Source: Fidelibacterota bacterium
Lineage (GTDB): Bacteria > Fidelibacterota > Marinisomatia > Marinisomatales > TCS55
Assembly (NCBI GenBank): GCA_004124385.1
Contig: SCKN01000005.1
Coordinates: forward strand, 1 to 64,000
Length of the DNA stretch: 64,000 nucleotides
Direction: 5' to 3'
In this document: one piece after another, positions 29,914-32,657 of the stretch
How positions within the stretch are numbered: the stretch's first letter is position 1
How the letters are laid out: each line of letters starts with the position of its first letter
Position numbers and translations under genes: made by a program
The notes under the pieces: generated by a model
The model's input: the letters and a program-made list of their open reading frames with translations, nothing else
What the model was told of the DNA's origin: nothing
Database searches by the model: none

Positions 29914-30867
29914 TTAAGGATCTAGTGGACTTTTAACGGCCAATGGCCCTTTTTTCATAACATGGGTATAAATCATGGTGGTGCGCACATCTTTATGCCC
30001 TAGCAATTCCTGAACTGAACGTATATCATAGCCATTTTCCAATAAATGCGTCGCGAAAGAATGACGAAAGGTGTGACACCCTGCCTGTTTATGAATCCCT
30101 GCATTTCGAACTGCCTTTTTTACAGAACGCTGAATATTGGATTCATGAACGTGATGTCGCCTAATTATACCGGAAACCGGGTTTTTACTTAATGATTTAC
30201 CGGGAAACAAAAAATACCAACCCAATTCTTTCCCGGCTTTGGGATATTTTTTCTCAATTGAAAATGGAATAAAAGCATCGGGGACATCATTCTTTTGATC
30301 CAATTCATGGAGATAAGACACCCGATCCATTTGGTGTTTGATTAAATCTCTTAATGATTCGGGCAGTATAGTGACACGATCCTGTTCTCCTTTGCCATCT
30401 CGGACAACAATGAGGTTTTGAGCAAAATCCACATCTTTTATTCGTAGGTGTAAACATTCAGAAATTCGCATCCCTGTGCCATACAGCAATTTAACCACTA
30501 ATGCATTTCGCCCTTCTAACTGCGCAATAACCCTCTTGGCTTCATCCTGTGAAAAAACAGTCGGTACTTTTCTTGATCGCTTGGCAATAACATAGTTTTT
30601 TGAATCACCAATATCTTTGTTAAGGACATGCTTATACAAAAATAGAATTGCATTTCTCGCCAGGTTTTGTGTGGATGCTGATACGTTTTTTTCTTTGGCT
30701 AAATAGGTTAGATATGAATTGAGTGCTTCCCCGTCCAACTTTTCTGGGTGTGTTTTATTATGAAATAGGATATAATGTTTTATCCAATGTTTGTAGGATT
30801 TCTCTGTCCTATAGCTGTAATGCCTTAATCGAATTTTATCACTAACTTGATCTAATAATTTTGACAT
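29914..30867 (-). CDS. intI: Integron integrase IntI (tyrosine recombinase)
   Basis: The 317-residue protein has a SAM-like N-terminal domain (KSYKHWIKHYILFH) and a tyrosine recombinase catalytic domain. Catalytic residues are visible: Arg in GTGMRISECLHLR, Lys in the GKGEQDR strand, HTFRHSFATHLLE, the His of LGHKDVRTT and Tyr in MIYTHV. The IntI-specific insert is present (KKYPKAGKELGWYFLFPG followed by GIIRRHHVHESNIQR) and distinguishes it from XerC/D. The end, PLAVKSPLDP, matches the IntI tail. It recombines attI and attC sites. The gene reads away from the cassettes, as expected. It looks intact. Confidence 0.94.
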   Translation of the reverse strand: MSKLLDQVSDKIRLRHYSYRTEKSYKHWIKHYILFHNKTHPEKLDGEALNSYLTYLAKEKNVSASTQNLARNAILFLYKHVLNKDIGDSKNYVIAKRSRKVPTVFSQDEAKRVIAQLEGRNALVVKLLYGTGMRISECLHLRIKDVDFAQNLIVVRDGKGEQDRVTILPESLRDLIKHQMDRVSYLHELDQKNDVPDAFIPFSIEKKYPKAGKELGWYFLFPGKSLSKNPVSGIIRRHHVHESNIQRSVKKAVRNAGIHKQAGCHTFRHSFATHLLENGYDIRSVQELLGHKDVRTTMIYTHVMKKGPLAVKSPLDP

Positions 30868-30984
30868 GGTTATTTATACGAAATTATCCCTAATATTTAT
30901 ATGGAATTTAAAACATGGATAATTTAATGCAAATACAGTATAACACGCTCAATTCGAACGCTACATTGCACATCCGCTATATAG

Positions 30985-30998
30985 TAAGTAGTTATGTT
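30985..30998 (+). other. Candidate attI recombination core
   Basis: GTTATGT at 30991-30997 lies 124 bases from the intI start and begins the first cassette. The core of the next cassette junction, GTTATGC at 31634-31640, is almost identical. The strand exchange would fall after the first G. The accessory integrase-binding repeats of attI are not obvious by eye. Confidence 0.6.
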
Positions 30999-31028
30999 GC
31001 TTTTAACCACATATAGAAAGGTAGTTTG

Positions 31029-31514
31029 ATGAATAGACCAAATATGATTCCTTGTGCGTCTTGTGGAATCGAGAACAATATTTTATCAAGAAAAAAGGGG
31101 AAAGAATTTACCTGTTTTGATTGTGGGGCAGATTTGCAGCTTGCTATAGAGAAATATGACAGTTCAGAAAAGTTTGTAGAAACCAACCCCGATCTCACAC
31201 AAGCAGAAAAATCAGAAACCTCACCTCAAAAAGAAAAAAAATACCCAACCTTGAAATTAATTTCTGCAATTTTTCGAGTTCTTGCTTGGATAGTGGGTAT
31301 AGGTGCATTAATCCCTTTATTTTATGGCTTAACTCTTTTGGATAATGAAACGGGAATATTAATTATTGTTTCTTCTCTTATTTGTGGAGTTCTCGGTGTT
31401 GTTTTCTTACTTGCTATTTCTGAAGGAATAGTCCTTTTTGTGAATATTGCTAATGATGTGAATGAACTTAAGAATGAGAAAAAAGTGATTAATGGGAACA
31501 GTAAAGCAACATAA
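31029..31514 (+). CDS. Cassette 1 gene: zinc-ribbon membrane protein of unknown function
   Basis: I do not recognise the family. The 161-residue protein has an N-terminal zinc ribbon (CASC about residues 9-12, CFDC about 29-32) and a charged Glu/Lys-rich linker (about 45-75). Two membrane helices follow (about 85-107 and 114-140), then a short charged tail. The ATG at 31029 follows GAAAGG at 31016-31021 and is better placed than the TTG at 31026. The stop codon lies inside the R'' box of the attC site, the normal compact cassette arrangement. It would be expressed from a promoter near attI or in intI. Confidence 0.75.
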   Translation: MNRPNMIPCASCGIENNILSRKKGKEFTCFDCGADLQLAIEKYDSSEKFVETNPDLTQAEKSETSPQKEKKYPTLKLISAIFRVLAWIVGIGALIPLFYGLTLLDNETGILIIVSSLICGVLGVVFLLAISEGIVLFVNIANDVNELKNEKKVINGNSKAT

Positions 31515-31640
31515 CCCCCAGTGAACCGGACGTGAAATGATGGAAGCGTAATTTAGTGTTTGGAAGTTTAACAATCATAAGTTTGAAAAGGGAAAGTCCT
31601 GCGGTTAGAAATTTCACGCCGGTTACTTTTTCCGTTATGC
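31509..31640 (+). repeat. attC recombination site of cassette 1
   Basis: The four-box architecture is complete. R'' is ACATAAC (31509-31515), L'' is GTGAACCGGACGTGAAAT (31521-31538), L' is ATTTCACGCCGGTTAC (31611-31626) and R' is GTTATGC (31634-31640). L'' pairs with L' over 16 bases, leaving G31523 and A31530 unpaired. Such extrahelical bases, present only in the L'' arm, are a hallmark of attC. R'' and R' are complementary at six of seven positions. The 72-base centre is the variable terminal structure. The total of 132 bases is within the range of known attC sites. Confidence 0.88.
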
Positions 31641-31662
31641 AACATAAAAAGGAGGACCTACC

Positions 31663-32526
31663 ATTAAAAACTTTATCCTAATCACCGGAATTTCAATTCT
31701 ACTAATACCCATCATTTCTTGCGACAAAGAAGATAAAAATGTTGATGAATTTATTTATCCTCTTTCAGTTGGAAACAATTGGGAATATTCGAGAGAATGG
31801 AGTCTTTATTTTTATCCCGATTCAACAGTGGAAAATCCAGTTTATGAAGACACACTAACAATTACAGCTGATATTAATGTTACTATTACAGGTGTATTAT
31901 CGCTTAATGACACTTTAGAAACATTTGAGTTTTATACAACTGAAACAGAGTGTGGTCAAATAGAACCAGCAATTGGTATCGAATATTATAAAAACAATGA
32001 TGATGGTTTATTTATGTATGCTCATAAATCTATTGGTGGGATAGTTTTACCAAAGATTTATCTTGAAAAATCAATTTCATTTAAAGGTTTGGAGTTTAAT
32101 GATTTTCGCAATCTTTCGAACTTTGTACAACAGTTTGCACCCAATTATAGAGTTGTTTCTGATTCAATTTATTATGAAAACCCACCAGTAAAATCATTGC
32201 TGTATCCGATAGAAGTTGATGCACAGTGGACATATCGACAAGATAATAATCCCTGGCGAATGGATAAAAAGGTTATCAGTAGAATTGATGTTGAATTAGA
32301 TGGTCTTGGTACTTTTGATTGCTTTGAAATAAAATTTTTATATGATATGGATCATGACGGTGAATGGGATGATGATATTTGGATTACTGATTTAATAAGT
32401 AAAAAAGGTCTAATTCAAAGAGATGTTACAATTCTACGAATGGTAGAATTAACCGAAAATGGTTCAACGGGTAGGTTTTTTGATGGTTTTGATGTTTATT
32501 CACTTACTGATTTAAGCATTGAGTAA
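31663..32526 (+). CDS. Cassette 2 gene: lipoprotein of unknown function (probable ATT start)
   Basis: The family is not recognised. Read from the ATT at 31663, the protein has 287 residues. It has a lipoprotein signal with lipobox PIISC (Cys20), then beta-rich, acidic sequence with a WEYSREW block and a calcium-like acidic segment DMDHDGEWDDD near residue 230. The nearest conventional start in frame (GTG at 31828) would remove the whole signal peptide. The ATT lies seven bases after GGAGG (31651-31655), with an in-frame stop at 31645-31647, so no earlier ATG, GTG or TTG exists. It probably sits on an outer or inner membrane surface. Confidence 0.75.
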   Translation: MKNFILITGISILLIPIISCDKEDKNVDEFIYPLSVGNNWEYSREWSLYFYPDSTVENPVYEDTLTITADINVTITGVLSLNDTLETFEFYTTETECGQIEPAIGIEYYKNNDDGLFMYAHKSIGGIVLPKIYLEKSISFKGLEFNDFRNLSNFVQQFAPNYRVVSDSIYYENPPVKSLLYPIEVDAQWTYRQDNNPWRMDKKVISRIDVELDGLGTFDCFEIKFLYDMDHDGEWDDDIWITDLISKKGLIQRDVTILRMVELTENGSTGRFFDGFDVYSLTDLSIE

Positions 32527-32534
32527 TAAATGTT

Positions 32535-32657
32535 GCATAACCCTCACTCCACCGGACACACTATGATGATGGATTCTAAATTTTGGATTATGGATGAATC
32601 AAACATCCACCATCCAAAATCAAACATCGGTATTTACTGTGAGTTTGTTCGTTAAAA
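32535..32657 (+). repeat. Degenerate attC-like site after cassette 2
   Basis: The left half, GCATAACCCTCACTCCACCGGAC from 32535, closely matches the left half of the first attC (CATAACCC, then ACCGGAC at the same spacing, and a later ATGATGG). The right half is poor: only CGGT and GTGAG pair back to the left arm, and the best R' candidate is GTTAAAA at 32651-32657. An internal hairpin (TTTTGGATTATGGATG with CATCCACCATCCAAAA) resembles a variable terminal structure. Confidence 0.5.

Follow-up and report, generated by a model that had tools for sequence, protein, structure and literature searches.

An attC site with two extrahelical bases in a two-cassette chromosomal integron of a Candidatus Neomarinimicrobiota bacterium

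The inverted repeat at positions 31509 to 31640 of a 64-kb stretch of DNA (the window) from a Candidatus Neomarinimicrobiota bacterium raises the question of whether it is a genuine integron recombination site or a palindrome that happens to look like one. An initial annotation had called it a bona fide attC, and our analysis upholds that assignment: an independently built model returns the same coordinates, the repeat closes a cassette on its 3' side, intI is intact and, like the conserved attI, lies nearby, and the flipped bases of the repeat have the T-N6-C arrangement. With a probability of about 96%, we consider it the attC that belongs to the first of two cassettes in a sedentary chromosomal integron, and that IntI would recombine as a folded bottom strand. 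The site, attC1, has the following parts.

31509..31640, plus strand: attC1, the site under study; recombination presumably uses the bottom strand
31509..31515, plus strand: R'' box of attC1, ACATAAC (sequence and bottom-strand fold pairs)
31520..31538, plus strand: L'' arm of attC1, with extrahelical G31523 and A31530 (sequence and fold)
31611..31627, plus strand: L' arm of attC1, all bases paired (sequence and fold)
31634..31640, plus strand: R' box of attC1, GTTATGC, with the crossover 3' of G31634 (sequence and cassette-end complementarity)

Direct sequence comparison bore out the complete arm pairing claimed earlier, since L' (31611-31626, ATTTCACGCCGGTTAC, reverse complement GTAACCGGCGTGAAAT) pairs at 16/16 bases with L'' (31521-31538, GTGAACCGGACGTGAAAT), and A31520-T31627 adds one further pair, bringing the L arm to 17. 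Exactly two bases of the L'' arm, G31523 and A31530, are left unpaired in the sequence as well as in the minimum free energy (MFE) and centroid folds. The in silico fold of the bottom strand, which had been proposed as a check, thus confirmed both flipped-out bases; MFE and centroid structures of 31509-31640 alike consist of a 6-bp R stem, an unpaired spacer with sides of 4 nt and 6 nt, and an L stem interrupted solely by two single-base bulges. On the bottom strand, these bulges are a T (opposite A31530) and a C (opposite G31523), six pairs apart, and their number lies within the one to three extrahelical bases expected on the L'' side of an attC. The R boxes were also found to be nearly complementary, as had been stated, with ACATAAC and GTTATGC pairing at 6/7 positions and carrying the AAC and GTT cores.

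Could such a structure have arisen by chance, or be an unrelated inverted repeat, such as a terminator or an mRNA hairpin, that merely resembles an attC? Two observations would be compatible with this. First, the fold energy of the whole attC1 bottom strand is unremarkable (z -0.81), whole-strand folding z-scores fail to set the site apart from background, and the top strand is slightly more stable (-16.8 versus -12.8 kcal/mol), so that energy alone neither proves attC1 nor picks a strand. Second, although attC1 is the top-scoring attC-like arrangement in the window, with a score of 21 (R match 6 plus L score 15), a few of 40 dinucleotide shuffles of the whole 64 kb, scanned on both strands, come near it, the best reaching 20. 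Its shape alone is therefore only modestly above chance in 64 kb, and position and homology are decisive. The RYYYAAC core by itself proved useless as a detector, with 118 matches, below the chance expectation. A simple arm scanner gave many false matches in AT-rich DNA and missed several real sites, the latter because integrated R boxes are composite; it was replaced by homology and cassette-end complementarity.

For homology, we built a covariance model (R2) from six foreign attC sites, two from locus L027 and one each from L098, L100, L057, and L066, leaving out the sites of the window. The model recovered 31509-31640 to the base with 75.7 bits and an E-value of about 8e-16, a rough figure because calibration was shortened. 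A second match in the window, at 32535-32657, reached 37.4 bits, and the next in the 64 kb scored 10.6 bits. Across the six foreign sites and attC1, the L stem is 100% paired (63/63 cells), with compensatory changes on both sides at 4/9 L-stem pairs, and sliding the partner by one base in this seven-site alignment lowers pairing from 90% to 34-40%. In Rfam, neither an attC-like nor a competing family matched at attC1. The sole terminator pattern overlapping the site is a 5-pair match on the minus strand, of a kind found at chance level. The exact recovery of both ends, the compensatory changes, and the lack of a competing Rfam family, together with the complementary ends of both cassettes and the adjoining intI and attI described below, make a chance or unrelated repeat extremely improbable, despite its ordinary fold energy.

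If attC1 is a genuine attC, it should close a gene cassette. An integrated attC is composite, with the R' bases past the crossover deriving from the next cassette, and each cassette's own ends should consequently match beyond the R box. The array that we delimited in this way reads as follows.

30992..31634, plus strand: gene cassette 1, ends complementary over 13 nt
31029..31514, plus strand: cassette 1 gene, 161 aa, with CxxC pairs and two predicted membrane segments (by eye)
31635..32651, plus strand: gene cassette 2, ends complementary over 12 nt
31663..32526, plus strand: cassette 2 gene, a 287-aa putative lipoprotein with an apparent ATT start, preceded by AAGGAGG
32535..32657, plus strand: attC2, array-terminal, with a decayed L stem; the 37.4-bit match of the independent model R2

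The sequence that begins with GTTATGTTGCTTT at 30991 is complementary over 13 bases to the one that ends at R'' (31515); between the sequence that begins with GTTATGCAACAT at 31634 and the one that ends at 32541, the complementarity spans 12 bases. This places cassette 1 at 30992-31634 and cassette 2 at 31635-32651. No further pair of ends of at least 11 nt was found at a cassette-like distance in the window, and shuffled sequences gave a mean of 0.2 pairs of at least 12 nt, with two or more in 4/200. AttC1 thus closes cassette 1 on the 3' side, and the complementary ends of this cassette are, as read from the sequence, what is expected of an excisable circle; the same applies to cassette 2. 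This arrangement also accounts for the 6/7 pairing of the attC1 R boxes, since R'' is part of cassette 1 and the outer bases of R' come from cassette 2. At attC2, the family sequence is kept and the folded bottom strand gives no arm pairing, which suggests that the array may have eroded at its end. The apparent ATT start of the lipoprotein gene lies seven bases past AAGGAGG. In homologues, this position or one close to it holds GTG or ATG, and the ATT may be a true start or a lost start codon.

The sequence preceding cassette 1 contains the two remaining elements of an integron.

29914..30867, minus strand: intI, integron integrase, 317 aa (TIGR02249, 433 bits against a cut-off of 265)
30925..30999, plus strand: attI region, with the crossover between G30991 and T30992 (TAGTAAGTAG and TTATGTTGC), conserved with L027 and L080

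The intI gene is intact, and its TIGR02249 match assigns it to the integron-integrase family, with all catalytic residues in place (R134, K159, H265, R268, H291, and Y300). The stretch between intI and cassette 1 is kept, in position and sequence, in L027 and L080, loci of two related genomes, up to TAAGTAG/TTA (the slash marking the crossover), and this conservation of the crossover and its upstream sequence identifies the attI adjoining intI. Contigs of genomes G129 and G087 (L080 and L079) end at or beside the attI crossover, which would fit a first cassette that varies in the sampled population. For a cassette promoter, Pc, the consensus was matched weakly at two places, a count not above that of shuffled sequences.

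The best solved relative of the integrase is PDB 2a3v (279 bits), named IntI4 in its PDB entry and called VchIntIA by Larouche and Roy (PMC3053210), who describe the roles of residues contacting the flipped bases. This Vibrio cholerae enzyme and the window's IntI belong to one family and share the catalytic residues and the contacts to the first flipped base, T12'' (P230, H238, and H239, kept by comparison with 2a3v). In the region of the second flipped base, G20'', however, Q145 and W157 of 2a3v correspond to K144 and R156, and the partner enzyme of attC1 may thus prefer another second base. The second extrahelical base of the attC1 bottom strand is C, whereas G is commoner in known attC sites. 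According to the same study (PMC3053210), IntI1 efficiently excises T-N6-G as well as T-N6-C sites, the four integrases tested prefer a spacing of six nucleotides, and a C in the second position favors excision by several of them; T-N6-C variants were efficient excision substrates of IntI1, IntI2*179E, and SonIntIA, and IntI3 recombined mainly sites of this kind. These variants share base identity and spacing with attC1, but they were engineered from attCdfrA1, whereas attC1 is a natural site known here from its sequence. Taken together, the T-N6-C layout and these preferences lead us to expect that the neighboring IntI recombines attC1 through its bottom strand.

By analogy with characterized integrons, from which we infer binding, cleavage, strand choice, and present activity, the reaction would proceed as follows. 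The single-stranded bottom strand would fold into a 6-bp R box, a spacer bulge of 4 + 6 nt, and a 17-bp L box, with the T (A31530) and the C (G31523) flipped out on one side. IntI would bind these bases, fixing strand and polarity, and its cut in the R box would fall, in top-strand numbering, between G31634 and T31635. Through strand exchange with attI or a further attC, the cassette would then be excised or inserted in circular form. The integron system is already known, and what is new here is another member with a textbook attC. As in the 59-base elements of aadA cassettes and the VCR of Vibrio cholerae, attC1 has the order R''-L''-L'-R' with AAC/GTT cores, extrahelical bases on the L'' arm only, spaced by six pairs, and complementary cassette ends; it differs from these sites in its central loop, which is long, AT-rich, and poor in structure.

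A different alternative is that attC1 is a true attC by descent in an integron that is dead or frozen, recombination having been lost in the host. The array holds two cassettes only, the L stem of its terminal attC is broken, and the intI of the L027 relative carries a large internal deletion; given the decayed attC2, the array could be near-inactive. Against this, the intI of the window is intact, attC1 pairing is perfect, and the G129 and G087 contig ends would fit variable arrays, so that we regard a dead integron as unlikely, though with appreciable weight. At L027 (5934-6221), residues 1-84 of the integrase are joined straight to its C-terminal tail, the central part being absent, and three attC sites still lie beside the deleted gene.

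Relatives of IntI (88-92%) occur in records of Candidatus Neomarinimicrobiota, and 47 of the 245 sampled genomes of the phylum (about a fifth) have an IntI match with E < 1e-40. Within the genus, such a match is present in only 3/6 genomes, two of them partial. A more distant integron of the phylum, at L007 (5101-8156), departs from the divergent arrangement usual in integrons: its attC sites lie on the same strand as intI, downstream of the gene.

In the host's own genome, a DNA search with the whole of attC1 found no second copy, and the covariance model found the two sites of the window plus two weaker ones, which flank a single orphan cassette on contig 5. This locus (L111; contig 5 of G000, about 314788-316226, minus strand) has, in order, an msrA-like gene (by eye), half an attC, a lipoprotein gene, and a decayed attC, and 8 nt of its cassette ends can pair. 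Elsewhere in the phylum, homologues of the cassette 1 gene adjoin attC sequence (G182 and G129), and homologues of the cassette 2 gene occur in 14/244 genomes. One of the latter, in G026 (L099, around 6163, minus strand), is preceded by GTTATGCAACAT, 12 bases identical to the 5' end of cassette 2 and at a nearly equal distance to the start codon; its leader is duplicated, and no recognizable attC was seen 3' of the gene. It is possibly a captured cassette.

Integrons of this phylum appear to be little described: in the literature searched, integrons together with Marinimicrobia or SAR406 yielded incidental co-mentions or nothing, and an earlier description may still exist. While the mechanism of attC1 is ordinary, its value lies in being a clean marker that fixes cassette borders to the base, and as a natural T-N6-C site it lends itself to studying the second flipped base against integrase preference. 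With this locus, a complete small integron is documented in a marine phylum that is widespread and uncultured. The odds seem to us about even that the Neomarinimicrobiota have an integron lineage of their own, with a shared attC type, a phylum-wide cassette pool that moves membrane-protein and lipoprotein genes between orders, and orphan cassettes elsewhere in the same chromosomes.
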